From the NCBI RefSeq assembly GCF_014202225.1, contig NZ_JACHGE010000001.1, positions 601,320 to 665,319 of the forward strand: a DNA stretch of 64,000 nucleotides, given 5' to 3'. The DNA comes from Algibacter amylolyticus (GTDB taxonomy: Bacteria > Bacteroidota > Bacteroidia > Flavobacteriales > Flavobacteriaceae). Every line of letters begins with the position of its first letter. Within the stretch, counting starts at the first letter, position 1. The notes under the pieces are model-generated. The model ran no database searches. It was not told where the DNA came from and saw only the letters and a list, made by a program, of their open reading frames with translations. A program made the translations under genes and the position numbers. Of the stretch, positions 8,120 to 24,540 are shown in pieces.

Positions 8120-8935
8120 TTGAGATATTTAAAAACACTTCTTATTTGTTTGCTGTTAGCAAGTTGCTCTAACGATTTGTATAAAGCGTCTAAAACCGCC
8201 TATAAAAAACAGGCCAAAGCACTTGGTAAGGATTTGCAATATATTCAGCCAGATAGTATAGGTAATCAATTGGTTGGTGTTAAGGAATCTCAGAATTTTA
8301 GTATGCGTAAGCCTAATTTTATTGTTATCCATCATACCGATCAAGAGAGTTGCGAGCAAACGTACAGAACCTTTGCGCTTAAGCGTACCCAAGTAAGTTC
8401 GCATTACGTTATTTGCGACGATGGTAGCATTACCCAAATGCTTAACGATTTGCTTCGTGGTTGGCACGCCGGAAATTCCAGTTGGGGCAACGTAACCGAT
8501 TTAAACAGCGTGTCTATTGGTATTGAGTTGGATAATGATGGCGAAGAACCATTCTCTTATGCCCAAATAAATAACCTAATGTGGTTACTAGAGCATTTAA
8601 GCGAAAAGTATAAGATACCCAAACAAAATATTATTGGTCATGCCGATGTTGCTCCAGGACGAAAAGTAGACCCAAGTGCGCTGTTTCCGTGGAAAACCTT
8701 AGCCGATAGTGGTTTTGGTATTTGGTACGACGAAACTAAGCTAAACGACCTCGTACTAGACGATAGTTTTAACCCCGTAAAAGCCTTAAAATTTATAGGC
8801 TATAATATTACTAATCTTGAAAGTGCTATTTACTCGTTTAAGCTGCATTTTAACCCAAGCGAAGTATCGAAAAAACTCACCGATAAAGACAAGAAGATAT
8901 TGTACTTGTTGGAATTGGAGGTTTTGAAGGGGTGA
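8120..8935 (+). CDS. N-acetylmuramoyl-L-alanine amidase lipoprotein (AmiD-like)
   Basis: This 271-residue lipoprotein has a short signal ending in a lipobox (LLLASCSN). The Amidase_2/PGRP fold is marked by the zinc-ligand motif FIVIHHTD, then SHYVICDDGSI, RGWHAG, SIGIELDNDG and the second ligand region IIGHADVAPGRKVDPS. It should cleave the bond between N-acetylmuramic acid and L-Ala in cell-wall fragments in the periplasm, probably for recycling or turnover. The start is TTG at 8120, since the signal peptide begins right there and no ATG is available. It lies 12 bases after polA and converges on the minus-strand methyltransferases, at the left edge of the accessory island. Confidence 0.88.
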   Translation: MRYLKTLLICLLLASCSNDLYKASKTAYKKQAKALGKDLQYIQPDSIGNQLVGVKESQNFSMRKPNFIVIHHTDQESCEQTYRTFALKRTQVSSHYVICDDGSITQMLNDLLRGWHAGNSSWGNVTDLNSVSIGIELDNDGEEPFSYAQINNLMWLLEHLSEKYKIPKQNIIGHADVAPGRKVDPSALFPWKTLADSGFGIWYDETKLNDLVLDDSFNPVKALKFIGYNITNLESAIYSFKLHFNPSEVSKKLTDKDKKILYLLELEVLKG

Positions 8936-8968
8936 GTTTTGGGGTGAGTAGTAATATGAATTAAAAAC

Positions 8969-10234
8969 TTATACCGAACAATTTTGAATAACCTCAGCAA
9001 TAGCTATTGCAATCTTTTCAGCCATTAATGGAGGTACAGCGTTGCCAATCATCTTATAATTATACCCCATACTTTCCGTAAATTCAAAATCATCTGGAAA
9101 AGACTGAATAAGAGCAGCTTCCTTAACGGTAATACTTCTTGCTTGATTAGCATCAGGATGAATAAACATTAAACCATCTTTATACAAATGAGCCACTATA
9201 GTCTGTGAAGGTCTATCCCATTCTAAATTTCTATATTTAGCATGTTTAGAATTTTTACCTAATAAATTATTATAAAATTGAATACGCTCTTCCATTGGGC
9301 GCTTATTCATATCTCTTATAACCCATTCTCCAAACACTTTAACATCACGTTCATTATGAAACCTAGGCTTATGGTTCTCCTCTATAGCTTCATCTAAATC
9401 AACCGGAATATGAGAATATTTCCTACCTTTTACCTTGACTATGTCATTGGTTGGCTTAAACTTTGGTAAATGACTTATAGCTTCTCTTAATGTTTTAGGT
9501 GTTTTTACTTTTTGCTTATTAATAGCAGAATAAATATTCTCTAAATTTAGATTACTACTTTTAGAAGCACGACGTATTCCAACAATAATAACTCTATTTC
9601 GCTTTTGCGGAACACCAAAATCACTAGCAGATAGCACAACGTTTTTAAGAGTTTCCGGCTTTTTTATATCATATCCGTGTTCATCAAAATACTCAAAAAT
9701 TCTTTCAGTTACTTTTATATCTCCTGGTTTTGCACTCAAAATCCCGGGAACATTTTCAAACACAAAAACATCTGGTTGAAACTCTTCCACTACTTTAGTG
9801 AAACTTTCAAAAAGATAATTTCTATAATCATCCTTCATAGAGTTTTTATCTTGTGCTCTACCGGCTACAGAATACGCCTGACAAGGAGGGCCTCCAATTA
9901 CAAGATCAACTTTCCTCTTTCCAACTAACCCTCTTAAACCTTTATTTATAACAAATTCATGATTGGTATCTCCAAATGTTTTAATAGCCTCTTCTCCCCA
10001 GTTTCCATTTATTAATTCATCAGTTTTTTGAATATCAAAATGCAATACTCTCTTAAAAGCATCATCATTAGAGTGATTCCATTTTTTTTCAAGTCTAGAC
10101 CTAAGAGTTCTTACCATCGGAATCTCCCATTCAACATGTGCAAGAGCATCATATTTCCCGGACATTATAAAACCTTCAGACAAGCCTCCACAACCTGCAA
10201 ATAAATCAATAAATGTTAGTTTTTTATTTTTCAT
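8969..10234 (-). CDS. DNA (cytosine-5) methyltransferase, second of a pair
   Basis: This 421-residue C5 methyltransferase has the canonical motifs in order: I (FIDLFAGCGGLSEGF, SAM binding), IV (GGPPCQAYS, catalytic Cys), VI (ENVPG), VIII (QKRNRVIIVG), a variable target-recognition region about 220-330, and X (GNAVPPLMAEKIA). It should methylate one strand of the recognition site of the divergent McrBC-like nuclease. Its start codon overlaps the end of the upstream methyltransferase gene by 11 bases, so the pair is one operon. Having two methyltransferases fits an asymmetric recognition sequence, as in LlaJI. The sequence specificity cannot be read from the protein. Confidence 0.93.
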   Translation of the reverse strand: MKNKKLTFIDLFAGCGGLSEGFIMSGKYDALAHVEWEIPMVRTLRSRLEKKWNHSNDDAFKRVLHFDIQKTDELINGNWGEEAIKTFGDTNHEFVINKGLRGLVGKRKVDLVIGGPPCQAYSVAGRAQDKNSMKDDYRNYLFESFTKVVEEFQPDVFVFENVPGILSAKPGDIKVTERIFEYFDEHGYDIKKPETLKNVVLSASDFGVPQKRNRVIIVGIRRASKSSNLNLENIYSAINKQKVKTPKTLREAISHLPKFKPTNDIVKVKGRKYSHIPVDLDEAIEENHKPRFHNERDVKVFGEWVIRDMNKRPMEERIQFYNNLLGKNSKHAKYRNLEWDRPSQTIVAHLYKDGLMFIHPDANQARSITVKEAALIQSFPDDFEFTESMGYNYKMIGNAVPPLMAEKIAIAIAEVIQNCSV

Positions 10235-11654
10235 TCTCAGTTATAAGATCTAATACATTTTTAAATTGTTCTGCAAACACACCACCTAACATGGGAGGCA
10301 CTGCGTTACCTATCTGCTTTAATTGATTTCTAGTATTTCCTGTAAAAAAATACCAATCTGGAAAAGATTGAATTCTAGCAGCTTCTCTCGGTGTGATGCT
10401 TCTAGGAAATTCCCCTGGATGTACGTATGAATTTCCATCCGTTTCTAAATGAGCAATAATCGTTTTAGAAACACTTTCTGAATCTAATTTAAAATATTTA
10501 TCACCAAAACCTTTTACTTTTTTATTCCCATCCTCATCAATAACAACTCCATAGGTAACTTTTGATAATGCTTTTTCATTAACCGGATCATTTAAATATT
10601 TTCCTGCTACAAGGTTTTTATAAATAAAGAGATCTCTATCATTATGATACCTTGCCTTATGGTTAAATAAAAACTTAGGGGTTTTTAATTTACCATTATA
10701 CGTATTAATAGCCTTTAAATACTTTTTATTTGCTGATTGATTGATTAATTTCTTGTATGGAACATCTGAAATATTCTTACCAAAACAACTATCCCTATTT
10801 TCAAACGAAACTTCAGCCTCTTCTTTATAATTATTAGGTTTAGGATTCGCTTTAATCTGCGGTAGATCGTAAATAACCTCTTTTAATTTTAAAGGATCCT
10901 TTTTGCCTTTAATAATTTCATCAAAAATTTCTGAGGCGTTGATCTCATATTTTTCTGACAAGTCTTTTCGAACACCAATAAAGAAAATACGCTCTCTGTT
11001 TTGAGCAAGTCCAAAATCTTTCGCATTTAATATATGAGAAGAAGTATCATAACCATACTCTCCTGTATCTGTTAATGATTTTTCAATCAAATCCCTATAA
11101 CCTGATGCAGAAGCTAAACCTTTTACATTTTCGATCAACACAAGTTTCGGAGATAGTTTTTCTGCAAATTTTAAGTAATACTTAAAAAGCTGATTCCTAG
11201 GGTCGTCAATAAATCCTTTTGTACGCTCCTCTAAACTAGCTTTTTTAGAACGACCTATCATGGAAAAGCCTTGACAAGGAGGTCCTCCAGCAAGAACATC
11301 TACATGTTTTATTCCGGAAAGGATATCTTTTATTGTATCATTACCTCTAACGGATGGAGCCTTTTTTCGAAGTTCAACCTCTTTATTAGTCTCTACAACC
11401 ATATGCCCCTGCATATCATAAATTACATCTCCATTACCAAGGTGTTCATAGAGCTCTTTAATATCTCCAAGAATTACTCGATCTTGATCAGTATCAGGAT
11501 GTGTTTTTATAAGATTCCTTTTTAAGGTGTTCAAAGCTGGTTCAGCAATGTCATTTGCCATTTCAAGGTGAAACCCCTTATTTCCAAACCCAATGGTTAG
11601 CCCTCCAGCTCCTGCAAATAAATCTATATAAGTGTATTTTTTTTTATTTTCCAT
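10224..11654 (-). CDS. DNA (cytosine-5) methyltransferase, first of a pair
   Basis: This 476-residue C5 methyltransferase has motif I YIDLFAGAGGLTIGF, motif IV GGPPCQGFSMIGR with the catalytic Cys, motif VI ENVKGL, motif VIII QNRERIFFIG and motif X GNAVPPMLGG. There is an insert of about 40 residues between motifs II and IV, and a target-recognition region around 270-400. It differs clearly from its partner outside the motifs, so it is not a recent duplicate. It is first in the minus-strand operon and divergent from the XRE-R1-R2 operon across a 165-base intergenic region. A perfect TATTTTTG element lies just upstream of its ATG. Confidence 0.93.
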   Translation of the reverse strand: MENKKKYTYIDLFAGAGGLTIGFGNKGFHLEMANDIAEPALNTLKRNLIKTHPDTDQDRVILGDIKELYEHLGNGDVIYDMQGHMVVETNKEVELRKKAPSVRGNDTIKDILSGIKHVDVLAGGPPCQGFSMIGRSKKASLEERTKGFIDDPRNQLFKYYLKFAEKLSPKLVLIENVKGLASASGYRDLIEKSLTDTGEYGYDTSSHILNAKDFGLAQNRERIFFIGVRKDLSEKYEINASEIFDEIIKGKKDPLKLKEVIYDLPQIKANPKPNNYKEEAEVSFENRDSCFGKNISDVPYKKLINQSANKKYLKAINTYNGKLKTPKFLFNHKARYHNDRDLFIYKNLVAGKYLNDPVNEKALSKVTYGVVIDEDGNKKVKGFGDKYFKLDSESVSKTIIAHLETDGNSYVHPGEFPRSITPREAARIQSFPDWYFFTGNTRNQLKQIGNAVPPMLGGVFAEQFKNVLDLITENEK

Positions 11655-11662
11655 AAAGTGTT

Positions 11663-11670
11663 CAAAAATA
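11663..11670 (-). promoter_or_regulatory. Candidate -7 element of the methyltransferase operon
   Basis: On the minus strand this reads TATTTTTG, an exact match to TAnnTTTG. It ends 8 bases before the methyltransferase ATG at 11654, which would give a leaderless or nearly leaderless mRNA. No clear TTG lies at the right distance upstream; a T-rich stretch occupies that position. Confidence 0.45.
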
Positions 11671-11762
11671 CATGGATTCTCACTCGTTAAAAAGTGTTTT
11701 ATAAAAAATTTACTAACAATTTAAATACTGATAAGAGGCGCTAATTTTATTTAATAAAAACC

Positions 11763-11807
11763 GCGAATTGTAGACTATCGTCCGTTGTACGATAGTCTAC
11801 AATTCGC
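11763..11807. promoter_or_regulatory. Perfect 19-bp inverted repeat, probable operator of the XRE controller
   Basis: The left arm GCGAATTGTAGACTATCGT (11763-11781) and right arm ACGATAGTCTACAATTCGC (11789-11807) are exact reverse complements, separated by 7 bases (CCGTTGT). The arms contain GACTAT/ATAGTC, reminiscent of the GACT/AGTC half-sites of C-boxes in restriction-modification systems. The repeat ends 12 bases before the XRE start codon and lies between the divergent methyltransferase and restriction operons. There is no T-run after it, so it is unlikely to be a terminator. Confidence 0.7.
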
Positions 11808-11815
11808 CAAATTTG
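11785..11815 (+). promoter_or_regulatory. Candidate promoter of the xre-R1-R2 operon, overlapped by the operator
   Basis: A TTG at 11785-11787 lies in the loop of the inverted repeat. It is followed after exactly 20 bases by CAAATTTG (11808-11815), one mismatch from TAnnTTTG. The right arm of the palindrome therefore fills the spacer between the two elements. Transcription would begin at about the ATG (11820), giving a leaderless mRNA, as reported for some C-protein genes such as the one in Esp1396I. Confidence 0.5.
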
Positions 11816-11819
11816 ATCT

Positions 11820-12032
11820 ATGGAAGATATTAAAGTCAGATTTGGAAAAAAAGTGCGTGAATTGCGTCTTTTAAAAGAGATTTCACAGGAGAAACTAGCA
11901 GAGTTAGCGGATCTTGACAGAACATATATACCTGGTATTGAAAGCGGAAAAAGAAATGTCTCAATAACTGTTATGGAAAAACTATCAATTGCTCTAGAAG
12001 TTAATTTATCGGATTTATTAAAAAACCTATGA
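11820..12032 (+). CDS. XRE-family HTH regulator, C-protein-like controller
   Basis: This 70-residue protein is made almost wholly of a Cro/C1-type helix-turn-helix: VRELRLLKEISQEKLAELA, then LDRTYIPGIESGKRNVSI and a final helix before LSDLLKNL. Its size and layout match the controller (C) proteins of type II restriction-modification systems. These dimerise on inverted repeats and time the nuclease after the methyltransferase. It lies 33 bases before the McrB-like gene on the same strand, and a perfect inverted repeat overlaps its own promoter. Autoregulation, and control of the restriction genes with it, is inferred. Confidence 0.85.
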   Translation: MEDIKVRFGKKVRELRLLKEISQEKLAELADLDRTYIPGIESGKRNVSITVMEKLSIALEVNLSDLLKNL

Positions 12033-12065
12033 TATTTTATCTAAAAAACGGAAAAGAAACAAATT

Positions 12066-14072
12066 ATGACAGTAAATGAAATCCTTAATAGATTAACTCC
12101 TGAAGATATTGCCAATGCAATGACTTCATTTAAAACGGAACCATACCAAAGAAAAGGAATAAAAGGTGAATATCAATTAGTTTACGAACAAGATGTTTTT
12201 CCTGTAAGGGAACTGATCATGCGAGCAACCAATCGAGAATTAAAGGATTCAGAAAACCCAGATTCATATACAACAGTTGTCGCAAAAAATAAATTAATAG
12301 AACTTGGATTTACAAACTTTTTAGATTCTTTAAAAATGTATACATATTATTTAAAAAAAGCATCGAAACAAGATGTTGAAAAAACTACAGTAATTAATAT
12401 CGAAGCAGTTACTCAATTCTTTGGAGTTTCGTTAATTAATAAAGATGACACAGCCACTGTTACAATTCATTATCTTTCTGATAACACTACAGATACAAGT
12501 GTTCAATTATTAAAAAAACAGGATCCTAGAATTTTTATTGATCGAACTCGTTTTTCCGAAGGAGATATTCTTTTATATATTTCAAAAGGTCAAAGTGTTT
12601 TTGATCTAGATGTTATAACTAATCAAGATGACAGATACCAAAGCTATTTATCATCACTAACTCATAATTATTTTCTATCTGATAACCTACCTATAAAAAA
12701 CCCATCCCTTGTTGACTTGTTTGATGAAGATAATAATAAAGAATCAAAGACAAATGAACCATTAAACCAAATAATTTTCGGCCCTCCTGGAACAGGAAAA
12801 ACCTACTCTACAATTACAAAAGCATTGGATATCATAGGAGTAGAATACAACAACTATGAAGAAGCACAGAAACTGTTCCAAAAGGAACTTGGTAAACGCA
12901 TAGAGTTCGTGACCATGCATCAAAGCTTTTCTTATGAAGATTTTGTTCAGGGCTTAAAACCTTTAAAATCAAAAGATGGTGAGAACATTACTTTCGATTA
13001 TAAAAACGGAGTCTTCAAAGAGATTTGCAAAAGAGCAAATTTAAAAAACAAAGAATACAAAAATTTCCAAACTGATAATCCTAAAGTTGATTTTGATTTA
13101 GTTTTTGAATTTGCATTTAGAGATTTAATTGAAAATGAAGAACCTGTTACTATAGAAAACGGAAGTGCTCCTTTTAAAATTTATGAGCTTAACGATAAAA
13201 CGTTGTGGTTTGAAACATCCAAAGAAACAAGACATACTCGATACACATTGGCAAAAAAAACTTTAAAGGATATATATAAACAAGGTGAAAATACAATTAT
13301 TACATCAGGCAATAAGGGTTATTTTGATTCGGTTCTTAGCTTTTTAAATAAAAAAGCTGCTGAATTACAAGAAAAATTACAAAAAAACCTAAAACTTGAT
13401 GACAACAAAAATCTTGTAATTATCCTTGACGAAATCAATAGAGCCAATATCTCTAGAGTATTTGGAGAACTGATAGCATTGATTGAAAAAGACAAGAGAG
13501 ATGGAAAATTAACAGTTACACTACCGTCAGGAGAACCTTTTACTGTACCATCAAACCTCTATATTATCGGCACCATGAATACCGCAGACAAATCTATTGC
13601 TTTGGTAGATATTGCACTTAGGAGAAGGTTCGAATTCACTCCTTTATACCCAAATCCAAAAATATTAAAACAAGTTCTTGAAGAAAAAGGCATTAAAAAT
13701 ATAAATCAAAGGGTAGAATTATTCGCAAACCTCAACAGAATTATTAGAGCTAAAAAATCAGTAGATTTTGAAATTGGACACTCCTACTTTATGGAAGATA
13801 GCAATCTAATAGACATTTTAAACAAACAAGTCTTACCACTACTAAATGAATATTTCATGTACGACCTTAAAAAGGTAAAAGATATTTTGTGTAAGCAACA
13901 AAAAGATAGAGAGGGTAATCTAATTCCTAATTTAAATATCGCATTGAACAAGGAAGTTTGGAGAGAAAGAGGATTATTAGAAATTGAAGCTTTAGAAACT
14001 GTTGAAGCTGTTGAAGCTGTTAAAAATTCACAAATGGCTGCTGAACCAGCTGAGAAATACACTACTAAATAA
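12066..14072 (+). CDS. McrB-like NTPase restriction subunit (LlaJI R1-like)
   Basis: This 668-residue protein has an N-terminal region (1-225) with no motif I recognise, probably DNA or target recognition. An AAA+ domain of the McrB family follows: Walker A GPPGTGKT (239-246), TMHQSFSYEDFVQGLKP, Walker B VIILDEINRANISRVFGEL near 455-475, and the McrB signature MNTADKS (from about 504) followed by ALRRRFEF. The family uses GTP or another NTP to translocate DNA and drive cleavage by its McrC partner. The C-terminal 40 residues are a low-complexity Glu/Ala/Val tail. Its stop overlaps the next start as TAATG. Next to two C5 methyltransferases it resembles LlaJI/BsuMI rather than a stand-alone type IV McrBC. 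Confidence 0.9.
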   Translation: MTVNEILNRLTPEDIANAMTSFKTEPYQRKGIKGEYQLVYEQDVFPVRELIMRATNRELKDSENPDSYTTVVAKNKLIELGFTNFLDSLKMYTYYLKKASKQDVEKTTVINIEAVTQFFGVSLINKDDTATVTIHYLSDNTTDTSVQLLKKQDPRIFIDRTRFSEGDILLYISKGQSVFDLDVITNQDDRYQSYLSSLTHNYFLSDNLPIKNPSLVDLFDEDNNKESKTNEPLNQIIFGPPGTGKTYSTITKALDIIGVEYNNYEEAQKLFQKELGKRIEFVTMHQSFSYEDFVQGLKPLKSKDGENITFDYKNGVFKEICKRANLKNKEYKNFQTDNPKVDFDLVFEFAFRDLIENEEPVTIENGSAPFKIYELNDKTLWFETSKETRHTRYTLAKKTLKDIYKQGENTIITSGNKGYFDSVLSFLNKKAAELQEKLQKNLKLDDNKNLVIILDEINRANISRVFGELIALIEKDKRDGKLTVTLPSGEPFTVPSNLYIIGTMNTADKSIALVDIALRRRFEFTPLYPNPKILKQVLEEKGIKNINQRVELFANLNRIIRAKKSVDFEIGHSYFMEDSNLIDILNKQVLPLLNEYFMYDLKKVKDILCKQQKDREGNLIPNLNIALNKEVWRERGLLEIEALETVEAVEAVKNSQMAAEPAEKYTTK

Positions 14073-15502
14073 TGGAGGTGTTTTTTGAATATCAAAAAAA
14101 AAAATACGCTGACTGCTTCTTAAAATCAAAAAAAGAAAGAGAACTGTTTAAATCTGTACTTAATAAATTATGGTTAGAACGAAATCAGTTCGGATTATCT
14201 TCAGTTTATTTTGATAAAAACAACAAACAATCTGAGCAACAATTTTTCACATTCTATGACGATCATATTAAAGCAGGAAAGTACATCGGAGCTATTAAAT
14301 ACGGAAATCACACTGTTCAGATTCTTCCAAAAACACTAGAGTCAGGAAAAAAAAATCATACAGAAACAGAGTTACTTGAAATATCAAATAAAAACTTACT
14401 TTGGTGGCTTTCTCGTTGTTCTAAAATAAATTTTCCTAAATCATTTTCTACGTGGGACACACAGATTTTTGATTTTTTAGATATACTGACACACCTGTTT
14501 GCTTCTCTTACTAGAGATGACTTAATTTTCAATAAACATCAATCATATGTGGAGAAAGAGGAATCCATCGGCACTCTGCGCGGACGTATAGATTTCTCAA
14601 GCTACGCCACAAACTACTACACAGGTAATGCACATATTTTACCATGCATTTATGATAGCTTAGAAATAGATAATCTATACAATCAGATAATTAAATTCAC
14701 ATCTAAACTACTATTACAACATACCGAAAATGATGAAATAAAAAAGATCCTACAGGAAATCATTTGGATTTTAGATGATGTAGAAGATACTTTTTTAACT
14801 GTAATGGATTGTGAAAGGGTAGTCGTTTCACCGTTAAATGAAAACATGAAAATAATTCTAGACTACTGCAAAATGTTTATAGGAGGAATGTCTATTAAAA
14901 TAAATGAAGATGAACTAGAAATTTTCACATTCTTAATCCCTGCTGAAAAATTATTTGAAGATTTTATCTTTGGCTTTATTAAAGATGAATTCGAATACGA
15001 TTCTGATATTAAAGCAATTCAAAGTCAAGGCGATCAAAATGGTCAGCAAAAACCTTTGGCTATTGAAAAAAACAATCAAGGAGAAAAAATCAGTAGTTCA
15101 TTTAATCTAAAACCTGACATATACATAAGCAAGCATTCAGGTGATATTATTTTAGATTCCAAATACAAGGTAATCTACACAAAACAAGAAGCACTAGAAG
15201 AAGACAGGAAAAAGAATGGAGTATCCATCTCTGATATATATCAAATGTTAGCTTACACCGTCAAACTTAATGTTCAGACCTGCCATTTATTATATCCTGC
15301 TACTTTAATTAATCAAGACAAACTAGGAACACATTATGAAATTAAACACGACAATGGAAACGATGTTTCAAGAGTGTTTTATCATCGTTTACCAACACTA
15401 ATTTTTAACGAGACAGGTAAATTAAATAACATTATTGAAACAAAAGAAAATGAACTTTTAAGCCATTTAAATAAAATTATTTATACCTCATTTACATTAT
15501 GA
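14072..15502 (+). CDS. McrC-like nuclease subunit (LlaJI R2-like)
   Basis: This 476-residue protein follows the McrB-like gene with a one-base stop/start overlap, so the two should be translationally coupled. The N-terminal half includes KYIGAIKYGNHTVQILPK and SIGTLRGRIDF, typical of McrC proteins. The C-terminal half carries a PD-(D/E)xK nuclease core: D349 in LKPDIYI and D362-S-K364 in LDSKYKVIY, followed by a helix with DIYQMLAYT. It should be the cleaving subunit and act only when assembled on the NTP-driven partner. No truncation or missing catalytic residue is seen. Confidence 0.88.
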   Translation: MEVFFEYQKKKYADCFLKSKKERELFKSVLNKLWLERNQFGLSSVYFDKNNKQSEQQFFTFYDDHIKAGKYIGAIKYGNHTVQILPKTLESGKKNHTETELLEISNKNLLWWLSRCSKINFPKSFSTWDTQIFDFLDILTHLFASLTRDDLIFNKHQSYVEKEESIGTLRGRIDFSSYATNYYTGNAHILPCIYDSLEIDNLYNQIIKFTSKLLLQHTENDEIKKILQEIIWILDDVEDTFLTVMDCERVVVSPLNENMKIILDYCKMFIGGMSIKINEDELEIFTFLIPAEKLFEDFIFGFIKDEFEYDSDIKAIQSQGDQNGQQKPLAIEKNNQGEKISSSFNLKPDIYISKHSGDIILDSKYKVIYTKQEALEEDRKKNGVSISDIYQMLAYTVKLNVQTCHLLYPATLINQDKLGTHYEIKHDNGNDVSRVFYHRLPTLIFNETGKLNNIIETKENELLSHLNKIIYTSFTL

Positions 15503-15556
15503 CTATTAAAAAAACATAAATACACTACTTAAGCTTTTAGTCAAAAAAAAAAACAT

Positions 15557-16459
15557 TTGAAATCAAAAATTTATAAATACAGTTCCTTCTCAGAGTATTC
15601 AATTATCAATATCCTAAATGATGAGTTATTCATGAATCATTATTCTTATTTTAATGATCCATTCGAATGTAATTGTAAAATCACCGCCGGATTCCCTGAG
15701 ATTAATTCAAACTCCCCTCGATTGAAAAAAATAATCAATGCTTGGGGGTTTGAAAACCATATGGACCCAGTCGTATTAGATAATTATGATAATTTGGTTT
15801 TGTCGCTTGAAGGTTTTGAACCTAATATTATAAAAATAATTGAAAGTGCACGAATTAGTTGTTTCAGTAAACGTGAAGACAACCTCATGATGTGGTCACA
15901 TTACGCCGATGGATTGCGTGGATTTTGCTTAGAATTTGATACCAAATTCATTTTAGATAATAATGACGTAGAATTACTTGAGGTTTTATACCAAAATAAC
16001 CCTTCTGAAATAGATACAGCTGAAATAGCCGTTTTACATGATCAAGTTCATTATCATGAAAACGCAATTTATGAAGCAGAAATAAAACAAAAAAATATAC
16101 TTCTTAAAAAATTAGAAAATAATTCGTTAAAAGAAGATTTAAAAATTTACAACGATAGCTTAGATACCGTTTATAAGAGAAGTAATGTTATACATCAAAA
16201 AATGCTAGCAACAAAATCTATAGAATGGAGTTACGAGGAAGAATTAAGAATAATCTTACATTCAAAAAACAATAACAATCTTGGTGTATTCATGAAATAC
16301 CCTAAAAAATCACTTAAGAGCATCATAATTGGACAAAAAATGCCTGTAAAGCAACAACAAACAATAATGAAAATAATTAAAGCTAAAAGAAACAAAATAC
16401 TGATAAAAAAAGCTTCTGTGATTGATGGGCGATTTCATATTAAAATTACAGATATGTAG
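15557..16459 (+). CDS. DUF2971 family protein
   Basis: This 300-residue protein begins KIYKYSSFSEYSI, then FNDPFECNC and ISCFSKREDNLMMWSHYADGLRGFCLEFD, and near the C-terminus WSYEEELRIIL. This is the order of conserved blocks in DUF2971. The biochemical role of the family is unknown, though it is frequent in accessory and defence islands. The start is TTG at 15557: the conserved N-terminal block begins right after it and the next ATG would cut into the domain. It sits 54 bases after the McrC-like gene on the same strand and could be read through from that operon. No partner gene is obvious. Confidence 0.8.
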   Translation: MKSKIYKYSSFSEYSIINILNDELFMNHYSYFNDPFECNCKITAGFPEINSNSPRLKKIINAWGFENHMDPVVLDNYDNLVLSLEGFEPNIIKIIESARISCFSKREDNLMMWSHYADGLRGFCLEFDTKFILDNNDVELLEVLYQNNPSEIDTAEIAVLHDQVHYHENAIYEAEIKQKNILLKKLENNSLKEDLKIYNDSLDTVYKRSNVIHQKMLATKSIEWSYEEELRIILHSKNNNNLGVFMKYPKKSLKSIIIGQKMPVKQQQTIMKIIKAKRNKILIKKASVIDGRFHIKITDM

Positions 16460-16562
16460 TAAAATAACGACCGCCTATAATAATGCAACAAATTATTTGA
16501 TTCAATTAAACAATATTTTTGCAGTACTTAAAATATATAATTTAACAATTTAAATTACGCTT

Positions 16563-17321
16563 TTATAAAATTCTTGCTTTAACCTTTGTCATTAAAGACT
16601 CAAAATCAACCTCATCTAACATTGGCAACTCCATAATTGCGGCATAACCAGTAATCCACTTAGCTACTATTTTTATGTTTTTAGATTTCAGAAGCTCCTT
16701 GTTCTCCTCTTTCTCTAAAAAGCGAAGTATGTTTTTAATTACAAATTCATTGTGAGCTAAATTCCTGTCTGTTATAGCTTGTTGCACTTCTGTATTAGTA
16801 CAAAGCACATCAAGCAAATGCCATTTATTTTCATCTGCACTATCAACAGTTAAAAATGCGTACCACCATAACCTTGAAACAGCATGCCTAATTAATTTAC
16901 CTGCTGTCATATCACCATTTATAAACAAACGATCACTAACAGTTTTCCCTCCTTTATTAGAGCCCCATCTGTTAACTGTATAATCCCTTAAATAATTAAA
17001 GGTTACATCATACCAAACTCTCTTATCGCTCATTTGGATTTTAACATTAACATCATCATCAAAAGAAATGGCATCCCATAATAATTTTGCAGCAGCAGCA
17101 TCAAACAAGGCAGCTGTACTATAGTTTTCTGCCTTTAAACTATTAATTTGATCAACTAAATCTAAATCTAAATAAACTCCCGTATTTCCTTCGGCAAATT
17201 GGTCACTTTCTGTAAATTGGTCGATTTTTAAAAGCGCATCAGACACTCTATTTTCTTTCAGAACAGTATCATATAAAGTTACGCAATAACTGCCCTTAAC
17301 TGCTTTTATATTAGCTTTCAT
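16563..17321 (-). CDS. Uncharacterised protein with an RLWW motif, last gene of the GHKL operon
   Basis: This 252-residue soluble protein has no signal peptide or membrane segment. The most distinctive part is near residues 145-165: RHAVSRLWWYAFLTVD, followed by helical segments (EFVIKNILRFLEK). From memory this resembles DUF6339-type proteins found in accessory regions, but I am not certain. It is the last gene of a four-gene minus-strand operon, overlapping the preceding gene by 11 bases. No catalytic motif is recognised. Its fixed place behind a GHKL ATPase suggests that it is a component of the same complex or pathway. Confidence 0.7.
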   Translation of the reverse strand: MKANIKAVKGSYCVTLYDTVLKENRVSDALLKIDQFTESDQFAEGNTGVYLDLDLVDQINSLKAENYSTAALFDAAAAKLLWDAISFDDDVNVKIQMSDKRVWYDVTFNYLRDYTVNRWGSNKGGKTVSDRLFINGDMTAGKLIRHAVSRLWWYAFLTVDSADENKWHLLDVLCTNTEVQQAITDRNLAHNEFVIKNILRFLEKEENKELLKSKNIKIVAKWITGYAAIMELPMLDEVDFESLMTKVKARIL

Positions 17322-18147
17322 CTTCTTCGCTTATTAATTCATTTAATTTTTTACTAGACAAACTTATTGGATTTGACAAAAGATCTTGTGCTGCTTGAAA
17401 AGGGTCTAGATCATCTACTTCTGCAACACCAATTAATTCCATTAAAGGCTGACCCCAATCGTTTTCACTAACTTCAACTTCTTTACTTTTAATTTGCCAT
17501 AACAAATCAACAACAATAGGAAAGACGAGGTTACCTAACAGAATCTCTTTGTATGGTGAATTATTAACACTAGTTATTAAATTAAAATCTGTACGATTTA
17601 ACATAATGTAAATAACATGGTTATCAATATTCAAATAAGGCAAATTATTATCATCCTCACTATCAATCTTTAATTTCAAAAACGAACCCGCACCTCCAAA
17701 CAACTCATACTTCTCATTAAATTCAACTTTAATAGCCGCCCCAACCGCTAACAAATTACCTTTAATTAGATTAAACGCATAACCAGATCGTATTTTATCG
17801 GCATTGGTATTTACATAGGCATTAATAGCTTTTTTTAAAAGCACAAAAGGCTTAAAATCAAAAGAAAAATATTCACCAATATCACTAAATGGTATAGTAA
17901 TGATTAAATTTTTTGACTCAAATTCAAATAGCTCAGAATAGAAAGCCCTATTTCTAACCCGAATAGCAATACTAGCATTTCCTGCATTTACATGTGCTTG
18001 TATAGTTGGCTCGTCTAGCTCACTCTCAAACTCAAAAACATAATTATCATTTTCAATTTTAGTGTTTTTTAAAACTACTGCAAAACTACCATTTACAAAA
18101 TGGTTTTCAATCCCTAAAACAGGATAAGTATAAACATCGTACTTCAT
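17311..18147 (-). CDS. Uncharacterised protein, third gene of the GHKL operon
   Basis: This 278-residue protein is not recognised. The first 130 residues look mainly beta-stranded (FAVVLKNTKIENDNYVFEFES, ASIAIRVRNRAFYSELFEF). The middle has YLNIDNHVIYIMLN. The C-terminus is acidic (LNELISEEDES). No membrane segment, Cys cluster or nuclease motif is visible. Its ATG lies 2 bases after the stop of the ATPase gene and its end overlaps the next gene by 11 bases, so the three proteins are likely made together. A structural, substrate-binding or adaptor role for the ATPase is a guess from context only. Confidence 0.7.
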   Translation of the reverse strand: MKYDVYTYPVLGIENHFVNGSFAVVLKNTKIENDNYVFEFESELDEPTIQAHVNAGNASIAIRVRNRAFYSELFEFESKNLIITIPFSDIGEYFSFDFKPFVLLKKAINAYVNTNADKIRSGYAFNLIKGNLLAVGAAIKVEFNEKYELFGGAGSFLKLKIDSEDDNNLPYLNIDNHVIYIMLNRTDFNLITSVNNSPYKEILLGNLVFPIVVDLLWQIKSKEVEVSENDWGQPLMELIGVAEVDDLDPFQAAQDLLSNPISLSSKKLNELISEEDES

Positions 18148-18149
18148 GA

Positions 18150-20015
18150 TTAACTTATTAATATTAATACATTTAACTCATCCGGATACGCTTTAATGAT
18201 ATTTGAACCAGGTGTCAATCTAAGTGGACCAAAAGTATTGGTGCTTTTGGTAAGTAGACTATCACCACGATTATCTTTAACGGTATTCATTAATTTAATA
18301 TCTAAAGAATTACCATTTTCATCGGGTATATTAAAGGAAAGTGTTTGTAACTCTATATCAACACTTTTAATATTTTCAATATGAACATCAAAACATAAAT
18401 CTTTTTCATTTCTAACTACAACATGAGGAAACTCAGAAACTGAATATTTTTTTCTCTTATTACTTGTATTGGGATTTGTCTTCTCTTGGGTTTTCTTTTT
18501 TCTTTTCTCTTTAATAGGTCGCGCTTTTTTTATGTTCCCATTTGGATCTATTCGCACTGTGCCACTTTTAACATTTACAGGTATTATATTATCTTTTTTT
18601 ATTTGAGGTAATTTTCTTCCTGTTTCATTATCGGTGATTTCGGCCGATGCAGTATTTTGACCTCCTCCACTAAGTCCTATTCCTGCAGCAAATAATTCTG
18701 CAACCTGAACATCCTCCTCATCACTAGCCCCACTGCCGGCTACCGCTGTAACAACCTCTCTTATGAAATCTCTAATTTCAACGCGATATTTCTCTCCCCC
18801 TACCAAACTTTTAAAATCCCACGCGCGATGTGTAGAACCTTCTGTCTTTCGAAGGATTTCTGAACCATGAGTACTTTCACAACAAAAAACAGCTGAATAG
18901 TCATAACTAGACCATGTTCTTTTTCTTTGATCCTGAATCATCATCTTTCTACTTCTCATCATATCATAAGAGCGTGCATAACCATCTTTTTGGATGACTT
19001 TAACGCAACACTTACCTAATAAAGGTAATTCTCTTGTTTCAGAATGCCCATTCATATAGGCGTCTATATATTGCAAGGTTCTATCTTGTTTGTCGTTCTT
19101 ATCGAATAAACTTATAAATTGTATTGTGTTTATAGTGTTACTATCGAGAAGCTTTCCGTTTATTTCAACTGTAATCTTATTATCTATTATTGCAGCATAA
19201 AAATTACGCATATAACTTTTAATAATCAAATCCTCCCAATCATCTGATTTTGGCTCAAAACCTACAACATAAACATCAGTTCCTTCTTCTGTTCTTTGCG
19301 CCATCCATGAAGGGATAGTTCTTTTTGCCTCCTCAAATGAATCGTAAGTTATAGTTCTATATTCTGTACCATCATCATGATCACAAAAGAAAATCTCACC
19401 TTTATACTTCTGGCCTTCTTGTTCAAAATAAATTAAATCAGTACTGCCAAAAAATGTGTGCTGTTCTTTTCCTTCGTGCTTACTATAGGAGGAATAAAAT
19501 ACTGTATTTATTCTAGATAAATTAAATGGCGCTGTTTTACCGTGCCCCCTACTTCCTCCTCCTTCACCACCTTCTATAGAATAACCAACAGAAGCAAAAA
19601 ATCTATAAATTGGTGATGACGTATCATCCCAATCACCATAAAGACCTGTTGTATTATAATCAGAAAATTTTAAAATTGTTATTTTATCTCCACTTAACAA
19701 ATCTATTCCTTTTTGAAATTTAGAACATGTTACACCGCTCTCATCATACCCTGCTTTAAGATAGTTTAAACCACATTTAAAGGAGTCTTTTAATTCCTGT
19801 GAACCAGGTATTTGATTTACATCAACTTCAAAGGATTCGATTTTTATTTTAACTGGATCTAATTGATTAATATCTTTCGGGTTGTCACTTGAATTTTGTG
19901 TTATTTCTCTAACTGTTTTATTGTAGTCTCCTTCTCCAAAGACTTCCTCTCCCCACTTGTTTGGTCCCTGTTTACGCCCCCCGGAATATGGAACTCTTTT
20001 TAATCCTATACTCAT
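18150..20015 (-). CDS. GHKL (Hsp90/MutL-like) ATPase, putative defence protein
   Basis: This 621-residue protein has an N-terminal GHKL ATP-binding fold: N-box REITQNSSDN (E37, N41, D44), a DxxxxG-type segment SDYNTTGL (D119-G124), and a Gly-rich lid GGEGGGSRGHGKTAPF (149-164) resembling MORC/MutL/Hsp90 lids. A second domain to about 420 includes the Arg/Lys-rich stretch MMRSRKMMIQDQRKRTW. A basic low-complexity linker near 505-530 (KEKRKKKTQEKT) leads to a C-terminal domain of about 90 residues, probably beta-rich. GHKL ATPases of MutL/MORC type are known from some restriction-linked operons. Here the companion Z1 and AIPR genes of the Mza type are absent. The function is unknown; a defence role is inferred from the island. 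Confidence 0.75.
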   Translation of the reverse strand: MSIGLKRVPYSGGRKQGPNKWGEEVFGEGDYNKTVREITQNSSDNPKDINQLDPVKIKIESFEVDVNQIPGSQELKDSFKCGLNYLKAGYDESGVTCSKFQKGIDLLSGDKITILKFSDYNTTGLYGDWDDTSSPIYRFFASVGYSIEGGEGGGSRGHGKTAPFNLSRINTVFYSSYSKHEGKEQHTFFGSTDLIYFEQEGQKYKGEIFFCDHDDGTEYRTITYDSFEEAKRTIPSWMAQRTEEGTDVYVVGFEPKSDDWEDLIIKSYMRNFYAAIIDNKITVEINGKLLDSNTINTIQFISLFDKNDKQDRTLQYIDAYMNGHSETRELPLLGKCCVKVIQKDGYARSYDMMRSRKMMIQDQRKRTWSSYDYSAVFCCESTHGSEILRKTEGSTHRAWDFKSLVGGEKYRVEIRDFIREVVTAVAGSGASDEEDVQVAELFAAGIGLSGGGQNTASAEITDNETGRKLPQIKKDNIIPVNVKSGTVRIDPNGNIKKARPIKEKRKKKTQEKTNPNTSNKRKKYSVSEFPHVVVRNEKDLCFDVHIENIKSVDIELQTLSFNIPDENGNSLDIKLMNTVKDNRGDSLLTKSTNTFGPLRLTPGSNIIKAYPDELNVLILIS

Positions 20016-20017
20016 TT

Positions 20018-20242
20018 TTAAAATTTAAATTTATCTTGATTTTTGGACACTCCTTTTTCAAAAGCAATCTTGAGACTCTCAACCTGTTTTTTTATTACAG
20101 ATATCATTTTCTTTACATCTTCATCATTATATTCATAATTATAAGGATTTGAGCATTTCTCAAGACTAGATAGCGAACTCAATACCTTATTTACTCGACC
20201 TGATGCGATCTGTTCAAATCTTTCACGTTTTGTTTTAGGCAT
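20018..20242 (-). CDS. Small charged protein heading the GHKL operon
   Basis: This 74-residue protein reads KRERFEQIASGRVNKVLSSL, then a CSNPYNYEYNDEDVKKM stretch and a basic helical tail. It is predicted to be mostly helical and has no membrane segment. I recall related small proteins (ERFE.IA..R...V.......CSN..NYEY...DV pattern) from accessory regions of many bacteria, but I know no function for them. Its stop lies 2 bases before the ATPase ATG, so it leads the operon. The closest promoter-like sequence is TACATTTA on the minus strand (20262-20269), one mismatch from TAnnTTTG. It could be a regulator or antitoxin-like partner. Confidence 0.7.
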   Translation of the reverse strand: MPKTKRERFEQIASGRVNKVLSSLSSLEKCSNPYNYEYNDEDVKKMISVIKKQVESLKIAFEKGVSKNQDKFKF

Positions 20243-20472
20243 AGAATTGTATTTATAAGCTTAAATGTAATATATTTTATTTTAAAACTACATATAATTA
20301 CATATATCAACACACACGTAATTAAAACAAGCTTTAAATCAAGAAATACTATATAATAAAGTAAATCATTTCAATAAGAATAAGATTAAACTCCCAATCC
20401 AGTCAAAATAAATAGCTATCAAGTCAACCATGCATAAGGTTTATCCATAATTTGTTCTTAAAAATATAAATT
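20243..20472. other. AT-rich intergenic region at the right edge of the island
   Basis: About 230 very AT-rich bases lie between the GHKL operon and a small plus-strand ORF. No tRNA, terminator hairpin, inverted repeat or gene was seen here. It should hold the promoter of the minus-strand operon. Confidence 0.5.
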
Positions 20473-20619
20473 ATGATAATTACAAAAGTATTAGGACTTA
20501 CAAGTACATTAACAAAGAGTAAAAAAGCTAAAATTGCAATTCTACTTATAGAAGTGGCTGTGTTAGCACATGCTGTAGCCACAAGAAAAGGGAAAACTCA
20601 GAAAAAATTAAAAAAGTAG
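20473..20619 (+). CDS. Possible 48-residue membrane micropeptide
   Basis: ATG at 20473 to TAG at 20617-20619 gives 48 residues: a basic N-terminal part (LTKSKKAK), one hydrophobic helix (IAILLIEVAVLAHAVA) and a strongly basic tail ending KTQKKLKK. The layout is that of a small single-pass membrane protein. It converges on the TspO-like gene with 11 bases between stop codons and marks the right edge of the island. Coding status is uncertain, as no ribosome binding site or homologue can be cited. Confidence 0.35.
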   Translation: MIITKVLGLTSTLTKSKKAKIAILLIEVAVLAHAVATRKGKTQKKLKK

Positions 20620-20630
20620 AACGTTAGGCT

Positions 20631-21437
20631 TTAGTTTTTCCTAGCATCTAAATACTCCTTACACTTAATCGCAGGGTTTGTTTCTCGGTTAATAAAGGCA
20701 TGCGTAGAACTGCTTATAATTAAAATTGCAGCAGCAACTCCTGCAGTATAAGCTACAATGGTATTGGCCTCGCTATTAGCTACATAAATAGCAATTAGAG
20801 CCCAAGCACCAACAAGTGCAAACTCGCGCATGTTTCGTTTCCAGGTTACCATTAAGTTTATTATGGTCGCAATACCTATTAATGCGATAGTCCAAAATGT
20901 TGGCGATAAACCGAAACCATCCCAATTGTATTTTACTAAAACGGCCGATACGTTTGCAATACTAGCCACGGTAATCCAGCCGCTATAAATTACAAAGGGC
21001 CACCATAAAAACAGAATAACAGAAATTGGCTCGTCTACCAATTCCATGCTGTTTTTAAGCACAATTTGTAGTAGCGAAAATAGAATGATAAAGATAAATA
21101 TGGAAGATATTAAGGTGTAACCGTAAATCCAGGTTACAATCCAAGCACAATTTGCAATGCAAGAGATTAGAAACCACCAACCTGTTTTTAAAATAAAATC
21201 GTCGTTTCTAACTTTTACAAATAGACTGCGACCTTGGTAAACAATAAACCCTAACAAGAGTAAATAGATTATTCCCCAAATGGAAAACGCATAACCTGCG
21301 GGAGTAAATAAGGTGTTATAATCTTTAGAAACTTCCCCTATGGTGGTGTTATTTAATAAACCTGTGTTAGACAAATAGTTCATTACAATAACACACACAA
21401 AAGCGACACCATTAATTATTTGTAATTGTTTTTTCAT
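20631..21437 (-). CDS. TspO/MBR-related tryptophan-rich membrane protein
   Basis: This is a 268-residue integral membrane protein with about seven to eight hydrophobic helices. Segments such as LFTPAGYAFSIWGIIYLLL, WWFLISCIANCAWIVTWIY, LFLWWPFVIYSGWITVASI and NWDGFGLSPTFWTIALI show the Trp-rich pattern of the long bacterial TspO-like family. Classical TspO is about 160 residues with five helices. This longer version is common in Bacteroidota and its ligand is not known; porphyrin binding should not be assumed. It stands alone, convergent with the micropeptide ORF and upstream of no obvious partner. Confidence 0.75.
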   Translation of the reverse strand: MKKQLQIINGVAFVCVIVMNYLSNTGLLNNTTIGEVSKDYNTLFTPAGYAFSIWGIIYLLLLGFIVYQGRSLFVKVRNDDFILKTGWWFLISCIANCAWIVTWIYGYTLISSIFIFIILFSLLQIVLKNSMELVDEPISVILFLWWPFVIYSGWITVASIANVSAVLVKYNWDGFGLSPTFWTIALIGIATIINLMVTWKRNMREFALVGAWALIAIYVANSEANTIVAYTAGVAAAILIISSSTHAFINRETNPAIKCKEYLDARKN

Positions 21438-21511
21438 TGTAATAATATAACAAAAATAAAACGATTAGAAAATACTGTGTGCATAAATTCTACGGTTTCT
21501 AAACCAATAAA

Positions 21512-23464
21512 TTAACGACGCTTCTTCTTACTTTTAAACTTCGCTTTGTTTTTACGCTTATTAAACGGCACAGCATCATCAAAGGTATGTTTAGCATCAC
21601 CAGTTGGTGTGTTTTTACGCCACTTCTCTGTTTTTTCGGGTAGTAACACTTTTAGTAAATCTTGACGCCCTAATTTGTTTAAAGTCTTTTTAATCCAGTC
21701 TTTATTTTCATCTTTATACCAAAAGAAAAAACGGTGTTGTTCGTCTTTCTCTTTTCTAGTAATAGGCGTGTTTACTTTTTTAAGCGTGTATGGATGGTAA
21801 CCACTATAGTAAATAACAGTAGCCACCGTCATAGGTGTGGGTGTAAAGCCTTGTACTTGCTCTAACTGGAAACCCATATCTTTAGTTTCGGCAGCTAGGT
21901 TTGCCATATCTTCTACTTCGCAAGCCGGATGATTCGATATAAAATAAGGGATTAACTGTAGTTTTAAACCTTTAGCAATATTAATTTTATCGAAACGCTC
22001 TTTAAACTTATGGAAGTAACTAAACGATGGTTTACGCATCAGTTTTAAAACCGGATCGCTGGTATGTTCTGGTGCTACTTTAAGTCGGCCAGAAACGTGC
22101 TTGGTCATCACCTCCTCGGTATAATCATCTAACTCTTTAGGGTCGGCATTTTTATTAAACTCTGGTACCAACATATCGTGGCGAATACCCGAACCAATAA
22201 ACGATTTCTTTACTTTTGGATGACTATCAACAGCCTGATATAATTCGGTTAAAGGCTTATGCGACGTATCTAAATTGCTACATATAACTGGCGAGATACA
22301 ACTAGGTGCCACACACTTGTCGCAAATAGATTGCACTTTCCCTTTCATTTGGTACATGTTGGCACTTGGCCCACCAATATCAGATAAATAACCTTTAAAA
22401 TCTGGCATATTAGCCACTGTATCCACTTCTTTTAAAATAGACTCTTTACTACGCGATGCAATAAATTTCCCTTGGTGTGCCGATATAGTACAGAAACTAC
22501 AGCCTCCAAAACACCCACGGTGAATGTTAATGGAAAACTTTATCATTTCGAAGGCCGGAATAGGCCCGCGTTTATTATATTTTGGATGAGGTAATCGCGT
22601 ATAAGGATAATCGAAAGAGGCATCAATCTCGCTTTCCGTCATGGTTGGATATGGCGGATTAATCATCAATGTTTTATCTCCAATTTTCTGAAAAATACGT
22701 CTTGCAGCCAATTTGTTCGACTCTTGCTCTATCACTTTAAAGTTAGAGGCGTATTTTTTCTTATCCTTTAAGCACACTTCATGCGACGCTATTTCAACAT
22801 CTTCCCAATTACTGTTTTTTGGTATTTTTTCTCCTTCTTTTAAAAGTACTGCCGTTTGTAAAACCGTATTTATACTGCTAAAAGGCACACCTCGCTCTAA
22901 CAAACGTACAACTTCACGCAAAGGTTGCTCGCCCATACCGTAAACCAACATATCGGCTTTCGAGGTTTCTAGAATAGAAGGTAATAACTTATCGCTCCAA
23001 TAATCGTAATGCGTAACACGACGCAATGAAGCCTCAATACCACCAATTAAAACTGGTGTATCTGGCCATTTTTCTTTTAAAATTTTAGAATAAACTGTTG
23101 TTGCGTAATCCGGACGGAAGCCAATATCGCCATTTGGTGTATAGGCATCTTTATCGCGACGTTTTTTGTTTGCGTTGTAATTACTAATCATGGGGTCCAT
23201 GCAACCACCAGTAACACCAAAAAATAATTTTGGAGCACCAAGTTTAACAAAATCCTGTAGATTATCGTTTACATTGGGCTGAGGTACAATAGCCACACGT
23301 AAACCAAAACTTTCTAGCATACGCCCAATAACTGCGGGTCCAAAGGTTGGATGATCCACATAGGCATCGCCGCTAAATAGGATAACATCTAGTGCTTCCC
23401 ATCCGCGTATTTTCACCTCTTTATTTGTGGTAGGTAACCAATCAGAAAGTTGTAACTCTTGCAT
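21512..23464 (-). CDS. YgiQ family radical SAM protein
   Basis: This is a protein of about 650 residues with the order of the UPF0313/YgiQ family: DVILFSGDAYVDHPTFG near the N-terminus, GGIEASLRR, the radical SAM cluster motif CFGGCSFC preceded by NIHRGC, a second Cys-rich stretch with CDKCVAPSCISPVIC, GSGIRHD, VAPEHTSD, and FTPTPMTVATVIYYSGYHP. The C-terminal tail is very basic. The biochemical substrate of the family is unsettled. I chose ATG at 23464 over the upstream TTG at 23473. A TAnnTTTG promoter element overlaps that TTG, so transcripts probably start too late to include it. Confidence 0.9.
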   Translation of the reverse strand: MQELQLSDWLPTTNKEVKIRGWEALDVILFSGDAYVDHPTFGPAVIGRMLESFGLRVAIVPQPNVNDNLQDFVKLGAPKLFFGVTGGCMDPMISNYNANKKRRDKDAYTPNGDIGFRPDYATTVYSKILKEKWPDTPVLIGGIEASLRRVTHYDYWSDKLLPSILETSKADMLVYGMGEQPLREVVRLLERGVPFSSINTVLQTAVLLKEGEKIPKNSNWEDVEIASHEVCLKDKKKYASNFKVIEQESNKLAARRIFQKIGDKTLMINPPYPTMTESEIDASFDYPYTRLPHPKYNKRGPIPAFEMIKFSINIHRGCFGGCSFCTISAHQGKFIASRSKESILKEVDTVANMPDFKGYLSDIGGPSANMYQMKGKVQSICDKCVAPSCISPVICSNLDTSHKPLTELYQAVDSHPKVKKSFIGSGIRHDMLVPEFNKNADPKELDDYTEEVMTKHVSGRLKVAPEHTSDPVLKLMRKPSFSYFHKFKERFDKINIAKGLKLQLIPYFISNHPACEVEDMANLAAETKDMGFQLEQVQGFTPTPMTVATVIYYSGYHPYTLKKVNTPITRKEKDEQHRFFFWYKDENKDWIKKTLNKLGRQDLLKVLLPEKTEKWRKNTPTGDAKHTFDDAVPFNKRKNKAKFKSKKKRR

Positions 23465-23470
23465 AGGCTG

Positions 23471-23478
23471 CAAAAATA
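23471..23478 (-). promoter_or_regulatory. Candidate -7 element of ygiQ
   Basis: On the minus strand this reads TATTTTTG, an exact TAnnTTTG match. It ends 7 bases before the ATG at 23464, suggesting a leaderless or very short-leader mRNA. This is the main reason to prefer that ATG. Confidence 0.45.
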
Positions 23479-23589
23479 AACAAAAATCGCCGCTTAAACA
23501 TGATAACTCAATTATTTTGGGGGCTGCGCTTACAGTATAACCTTAAATAACAATATTTGGCAGTGTGCTTAGGTAACTATTTATAGCAA

Positions 23590-24414
23590 TTAAATTTTAA
23601 AAGTAACCACAGGGCGTTTGGCATGATTTACCAAATCTTCACTAATACTACCATTAAAAAAATGCGAAATACCTTGTCTGCCATGGGTGCTCATACCAAT
23701 TAAATCGGCACCAATAGATTCAGAAAAATTCATAATACCCTTTTCAATAGTAACATCGTTGTACGTGTTAAGGGTATAATTTTCGAAATCGGAAGACGCA
23801 ACAAAGGACTTCATGCGCTCATTAGTAGTTTCCGTAGGCATAAATTTATTCGGCGTATTTACGGTTAGCAAATGTAGTTTAGCATCAAATTTTTTGGCAA
23901 ATGTTATCGCTTTTTTATAAGTTTCTTTGCTTTCGTCTTTAAAATCGGAAGCAAAAACAAAGTTAGAGACGTTAAACGTTTCGTGTTCTTTTTTAACCAC
24001 AAGCACGGGTATTTCAGAGGTTCTTACCACCTTTTCGGTATTACTTCCAATGAGCATTTCTCTTAATCCGCTTACACCATTAGAGCCCATAACAATTAAA
24101 TCGATGTCGTACTTTTTGCAATTATGAAAAACACCCTTAAAAATCTCATTAAAATCTACCGTTTCGTGCACTATTACATCGTTTAGGTATCTTTTTCTTA
24201 AAATAGATTCAAACCTTTTGTGTGCCAATTTCATAAAAAACATAGCCTCAGGTAGTTCGCTTTGCAAGCTCGTGGTATCAACATCATGCATAGGCATTTC
24301 AATAAGATGAAGTAAATAAATTTCGGCATTATGAGTTTTTGCTAATTGAGCAGCTACTTTTAAAGCGTTTTCAGCTTGATCAGAAAAATCGGTAGGAACA
24401 AGTATTTTTTTCAT
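23590..24414 (-). CDS. Universal stress protein with two UspA domains
   Basis: This 274-residue cytoplasmic protein has tandem Usp folds. The first starts MKKILVPTDFSDQAENALKVA, with the ATP-loop-like GSNGVSGLREMLIGSNTEKVVR and PVLVVKK. The second starts NFVFASDFKDESKETYKKAI and has MSTHGRQGISHFFNGSISEDLVNHAKRPVV. The double-domain form is usual in Bacteroidota. A role in stress survival is known only at family level. The gene is monocistronic, divergent from rimP. Confidence 0.88.
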   Translation of the reverse strand: MKKILVPTDFSDQAENALKVAAQLAKTHNAEIYLLHLIEMPMHDVDTTSLQSELPEAMFFMKLAHKRFESILRKRYLNDVIVHETVDFNEIFKGVFHNCKKYDIDLIVMGSNGVSGLREMLIGSNTEKVVRTSEIPVLVVKKEHETFNVSNFVFASDFKDESKETYKKAITFAKKFDAKLHLLTVNTPNKFMPTETTNERMKSFVASSDFENYTLNTYNDVTIEKGIMNFSESIGADLIGMSTHGRQGISHFFNGSISEDLVNHAKRPVVTFKI

Positions 24415-24477
24415 ATTTAAGAAGTTGTGGTGTATCTAAATTTATGAAATATTCCTTTAAAAATCAATAAAATATTA

Positions 24478-24485
24478 TATATTTG
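24478..24485 (+). promoter_or_regulatory. Candidate -7 element of the rimP-nusA-infB operon
   Basis: TATATTTG matches TAnnTTTG exactly. Only a T-rich stretch sits where the upstream TTG would be expected. A start near 24491 would put a strong hairpin within the leader before rimP. Confidence 0.45.
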
Positions 24486-24513
24486 CATCGTTGAAAGGCG
24501 GAATTAAAGATAT

Positions 24514-24540
24514 GAGGGGACGGAAAGTCCCCTCTTTTTA
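24514..24540 (+). terminator. Terminator-like hairpin in the rimP leader (possible attenuator)
   Basis: GAGGGGAC, loop GGAAA, GTCCCCTC, then TTTTT. This is a perfect 8-bp GC-rich stem with a T-run, ending 9 bases before the rimP ATG. It has the full form of an intrinsic terminator yet lies downstream of the only promoter-like element and before the first gene. Confidence 0.7.

Follow-up and report, generated by a model that had tools for sequence, protein, structure and literature searches.

The proximity of bacterial relatives of the MORC ATPases to restriction systems was noted as early as 2008 (PMC2292703), and their biochemistry has been called poorly understood (PMC8011034). The paraMORC2 proteins were defined by a GHKL ATPase domain joined to an S5 domain, with an ExxxH motif near the end of the latter (Iyer, Abhiman and Aravind, 2008; PMC2292703), and HEF_HK and Response_reg_2 genes were described near type II restriction-modification genes (PMC8011034). 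A GHKL ATPase also takes part in phage defence in the GHKL-Shedu protein VcSduA (PMC12137116), and the LlaJI restriction-modification system comprises two C5-cytosine methyltransferases (C5 methyltransferases) together with McrB-like and McrC-like subunits, encoded by similarly oriented genes (PMC1459862). PADLOC-DB includes PDC entries, putative candidates that were proposed by guilt-by-embedding and most of which lack validation (PMC12988326). Here we analyse a four-gene operon of Algibacter amylolyticus that encodes a GHKL ATPase, located in a stretch of 64,000 nucleotides (contig NZ_JACHGE010000001.1, positions 601,320 to 665,319; hereafter, the window), and we propose that it represents PDC-M33 plus a fourth subunit and may assist C5-type restriction-modification as an ATP-gated DNA clamp. 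Mza likewise holds a GHKL protein within a multi-gene defence operon.

A PDC-M33 cassette with a fourth gene

The operon consists of four minus-strand open reading frames (ORFs) encoding, in order, proteins of 74, 621, 278 and 252 residues (Table 1), separated by gaps of 2 bases each at 20016-20017 and 18148-18149 and, between the last two, overlapping by 11 bases, which agrees with the layout given in a first-pass annotation of the window. Chance ORFs are excluded, because all four proteins have relatives in other genomes, where the order is kept. Using PADLOC-DB v2.0.0, the three larger proteins were all matched, in order, as M33A (E 3.1e-69 across residues 10-522), M33B (E 3.5e-31) and M33C of PDC-M33, with M33B and M33C adjacent. 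Thus, the operon, previously considered to have no common name, does carry one for its three larger genes, a candidate label for phage defence, whereas the extra 74-residue protein is matched by no PADLOC model. Profile searches, as proposed in the first-pass annotation, named A, B and C, but the small protein matched nothing when compared with Pfam, PADLOC, NCBIfam and PHROGs. A literature search, thin in subscription papers and preprints, yielded no paper on PDC-M33 or DUF6339.

Both motifs noticed in the first reading, the N-box (REITQNSSDN) and the Gly-rich lid, were located in M33A. Furthermore, the N-box, G1 and lid motifs of the GHKL superfamily are present in 29 of 29 aligned sequences, and residues E37, N41, D44, D119, G154, G157, G159 and K160 are invariant among these relatives. 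The predicted model displays a GHKL plus transducer fold, with the GHKL and S5/transducer part at residues ~10-430, a low-confidence linker with many basic residues (430-529) and a C-terminal beta domain (~530-621). The S5 domain contains, in its C-terminal part, an ExxxH motif that is kept in 29/29 sequences, which, judged by the published definition, agrees with paraMORC2, whose neighbourhoods also include methylases and Vsr (PMC2292703). By sequence alone, no GHKL family was named in a Pfam scan of the protein, and profile searches of solved structures with two M33A alignments gave nothing credible, with no solved GHKL protein matched.

Comparison with the other systems revealed differences as well as common traits. 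VcSduA is a single protein with its own nuclease (PMC12137116), whereas the Pfam scan and the predicted model recognised no nuclease in M33A, and no C-terminal DUF4263 nuclease was matched in this protein by Pfam or PADLOC. A resemblance to VcSduA is found in locus L022, where a HATPase_c_3 protein (6583-8442) directly upstream of M33A overlaps its start and has a C-terminal part that looks PD-(D/E)xK-like to us. Similar to what is seen at M33 loci, paraMORC-related GHKL proteins of the HEF_HK and Response_reg_2 systems are linked to C5 methylases, Vsr and HNH_2 (PMC8011034); however, these have other domains, and M33B, M33C and the 74-residue gene do not appear in the excerpted passages of that paper. 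As for Mza, M33A had no match to MzaB in PADLOC. The operon is part of a defence island, and the earlier statement that Mza partners are missing from it held among the neighbours scanned in the window, a scan that took the features of Mza as that annotation gave them and did not include the 653-residue ORF at 21512-23473.

Linkage to C5 methyltransferases and changing nucleases

A C5 methyltransferase gene was found near M33A, that is, within 10 kb as far as the stretch examined reaches, in 33 of 41 loci (8/11, 5/7 and 20/23 by three baits), after exclusion of L045 and L066, which repeat L017 and L021, and of L069, which repeats L076. Nine M33A genomes contain 17 C5 methyltransferase genes according to our own grouping of C5 matches, 9 of which lie within 10 kb against ~0.1 expected (binomial ~1e-16, or ~1e-12 with two genes per locus counted once). 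In nine loci the methyltransferase gene directly follows M33C, and the two C5 methyltransferases of the window share a sequence cluster with those at other M33 loci. Vsr is near M33A in 18/41 loci. The restriction-modification neighbours are indeed present, as the first-pass annotation described, and given this recurrence they are more than company by appearance; a neighbourhood survey, also suggested there, uncovered conserved co-occurrence both for this methyltransferase and for the small gene described below.

The endonuclease partner varies between M33 loci while M33 stays. Partners include HpaII (L016), MutH/Sau3AI (L042 and its cluster with L051 and L062; also L071, as annotated), HNH_2 (L040 and its cluster with L043, L049, L052 and L053), MvaI/BcnI (L047), a FokI-type cleavage domain (just above the cut-off in L020, just below in L023), the AlwI family (L073 and L076, as annotated), and unnamed type II enzymes (L074 and L075, as annotated); in addition, L057 has an N-terminal domain of MrcB-like type and L064 weakly matches BsaWI. 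The scan covered part of the neighbours, and the remainder of the 20 scanned were not recognised as endonucleases.

A small protein with more than one GHKL partner

The 74-residue protein is the least expected part of the operon. Its family displays three invariant residues (R16, Y36 and F72) across 29 aligned rows, and when four of its copies were used as query, 43 loci were recovered from genome contigs, which by their record titles span Bacteroidota, Clostridia and other Bacillota, Gastranaerophilales, Verrucomicrobia, Proteobacteria, Actinobacteria and Roizmanbacteria. A GHKL gene lies directly downstream in 41 of these 43 loci, with M33A at 24 loci and a member of a second GHKL family at 17; the exceptions are L053 and L058, the latter with an M33A-like fragment only, whereas L050 was counted with a partial M33A, and L045 and L066 come from the same genomes as L017 and L021. 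These partners were recognised by two profiles, one per family, which other GHKL families could escape. Using M33A as bait, the small gene was found in 4/11 genome loci and in 5/7 plasmid loci, which represent 21 plasmid matches, 8 of them opened and near-copies left out. In a sample of 395 genomes, the profile of the small protein gave 9 matches, with 2 weak ones left aside; the 7 strong ones adjoin M33A (4), the second family (2) or neither (1, L105), and three of them are rows of the query alignment or come from the same genome as one, while the contig of L106 is as long as that of L038. Regarding partner change, the L018 copy, which adjoins M33A, shares 82% identity with the copies of L035-L037, which adjoin the second family.

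Members of the second family have 579-821 residues, with the GHKL motifs invariant in 12 aligned members, and Pfam HATPase_c_3 was matched at E up to 0.1 in 5 of 7 scanned, one above the cut-off. M33A aligns with the profile of this family at a probability of 11% (E 0.003), with motifs in register and over the GHKL part only; against the HATPase_c_3 protein of L034 the probability was 1.3%. Second-family genes are accompanied either by an N4/N6 methylase together with a HATPase_c_3 protein or by a YhcG-type nuclease. One such set in L034 (7983-14044) encodes a relative of the 74-residue protein, a 750-residue protein with GHKL motifs, an N4/N6 methylase, a protein of 262-291 residues without assigned function and a HATPase_c_3 protein of ~510 residues; this five-gene order, with two GHKL-type proteins in one operon, is repeated in L026, L030, L035, L036, L038 and L065, and in L034 the methylase was the only strong PADLOC match.

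On plasmids (16 records matched, 12 opened), 13 loci of the small family comprise 5 with M33A, 4 with other GHKL-like genes and 4 without a recognised GHKL neighbour (L082; L084, with a transposase gene; L085; and L086). The four GHKL-like partners, two with sub-threshold Pfam HATPase_c_3 matches and two recognised by motif only, suggest on weaker evidence two more partner kinds. Nine loci on viral contigs have a GHKL neighbour in three cases (L096, L098 and L102), the contig end in two and none in four; relatives without a recognised adjoining GHKL gene in the viral collection include L100 (5932-6234), L101 (5929-6231) and L103 (5923-6231).

A bolder reading, less likely than not, is that the 74-residue protein defines an exchangeable adaptor family, common to several unrelated GHKL ATPase families of restriction and defence operons, which would bind and gate the GHKL domain through one shared switch, somewhat as co-chaperones gate Hsp90. 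To our reading of the literature, neither the fourth gene with its change of partner nor the breadth of the C5 methyltransferase link of M33 has been described before, while the general link is not new, given that GHKL proteins beside methylases and Vsr have already been noted (PMC2292703, PMC8011034).

Proposed function and alternatives

Of the readings considered, an ATP-gated clamp assisting C5-type restriction-modification, in which methylation serves as the self mark, best suits the combination of a steady gene set, a clamp-type fold, a C5 methyltransferase and a changing nuclease; we assign it a probability of roughly 0.45. The ATPase motifs, predicted fold, gene set and linkage are the part of it taken directly from sequences and predicted models. 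M33A would dimerise on ATP and close around DNA, like MORC, Hsp90 and topoisomerase VI-B, and M33B, with its Ig-like domain and helices, and M33C (DUF6339) may bind M33A or DNA and choose what is clamped. The 74-residue protein would dock on the ATPase and control or target it. The linked methyltransferase would mark host DNA, which would thereby be exempt, and unmarked DNA, once clamped, would be blocked or passed to the nuclease that belongs to the adjacent restriction system.

Several observations weigh against the clamp model. No C5 methyltransferase was seen in the stretch examined at 8/41 loci; L070 carries other methylase genes instead, and the genome G394, where M33A is however fragmented, lacks any C5 match. 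Furthermore, only about 4 of the 20 neighbours scanned resemble restriction endonucleases, including one weak case, and relatives of the small protein without a recognised adjoining GHKL gene occur. The linkage itself could reflect co-location, as it is their position within defence loci by which known defence candidates are identified.

The loci without a C5 methyltransferase, together with the other defence genes that adjoin M33 (Shedu-named in L074 and L075, AbiG in L076), would also suit an independent defence system, one that occupies the same islands as restriction-modification systems without any functional tie to cytosine methylation. We consider this unlikely, since the linked methyltransferases are all of C5 type and gather around M33 as described, whereas the second GHKL family, found in similar islands, has one nearby in just 2/17 loci. 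M33 might otherwise be a backup or abortive-infection arm that senses failure or inhibition of restriction and then uses M33C or M33B as effector to halt the cell; the changing endonuclease beside a constant M33 is what a guard should show, and neither the Pfam scan nor the predicted model revealed a nuclease in M33A or M33B. However, alignments of relatives displayed no conserved catalytic residue set in M33B or M33C, and no toxin family was matched in Pfam, PADLOC or NCBIfam, making this arm rather improbable. Finally, a MutL-like repair helper, acting together with Vsr at T:G mismatches or at breaks that the restriction system inflicts on its own host, is quite improbable, as 23/41 loci, the window included, have no Vsr near M33, and M33A is patchily distributed (9/395 genomes of the phylum), unlike housekeeping repair.

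The cassette surveyed here is compact, keeps a steady gene set, often has a methylation partner and includes a small protein that accompanies GHKL ATPases of more than one family. With these four genes in a laboratory strain, the role of MORC-type clamps in restriction becomes testable, and the 74-residue gene provides a handle for finding further GHKL operons in which the ATPase is missed by the usual profiles.

Remaining proteins and genomic context

M33B, first described as beta-rich, is so in the N-terminal half of its predicted model and helical afterwards. M33C contains the RLWW motif read previously, keeps W103 in 25/26 sequences and is the only operon protein above a Pfam cut-off; its profile found nothing credible among solved structures. 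Long C-terminal extensions, for a total of 376-485 residues, were observed in M33C of five loci (Table 1), and the L018 protein, the sole one scanned, showed no domain besides DUF6339.

Table 1. Coordinates of the features in the window and of extended M33C proteins at other loci
Feature	Position	Strand	Remarks
74-residue small protein (z74)	20018..20242	-	First operon gene; conserved companion of GHKL ATPases
621-residue GHKL ATPase, PDC-M33A	18150..20015	-	paraMORC2-like ExxxH (E392, H396)
278-residue PDC-M33B	17311..18147	-	Predicted N-terminal Ig/FN3-like beta sandwich, C-terminal helices
252-residue PDC-M33C, DUF6339	16563..17321	-	PF19866 E 4.6e-27; PADLOC E 1.7e-25
DUF2971 protein, PADLOC single-gene candidate PDC-S31	15557..16459	+	Pfam E 2.1e-11; PADLOC E 6.8e-46
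McrC-like subunit (PF10117)	14072..15502	+	E 6.3e-57
McrB-like AAA+ subunit	12066..14072	+	AAA_5 E 7.6e-12; NF008457 E 3.8e-37, below the model's cut-off
C5 methyltransferase 1	10224..11654	-	PF00145 E 4.2e-58
C5 methyltransferase 2	8969..10234	-	PF00145 E 7.1e-59
Variable block	8934..20387		Restriction-modification genes, DUF2971 gene, M33 operon
Extended M33C, L018	10917-12332		
Extended M33C, L029	7673-9055		
Extended M33C, L044	13844-15025		
Extended M33C, L046	10993-12123		
Extended M33C, L078	191-1648		

The restriction-modification set of the window (8969-15502) has the composition of LlaJI, with two overlapping C5 methyltransferase genes that, unlike those of LlaJI, are divergent from the McrB-like and McrC-like genes; the LlaJI abstract names no GHKL cassette (PMC1459862). 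This set is adjacent to the M33 operon, with the DUF2971 gene, which also matches PHROG 1762, lying between the McrC-like gene and the operon and convergent with the latter. A flavobacterial-type promoter pattern at 20483-20516 was discarded as not above chance (4 found against 6.1 expected).

In one congeneric genome the block at 8934-20387 is missing, a single comparison that cannot establish entry of the whole block in one step. The flanks are 97% (7104-8933), 89% (20388-20637) and 92% (21508-34357) identical between both genomes, and 3.6 kb of other DNA occupies the place of the block.
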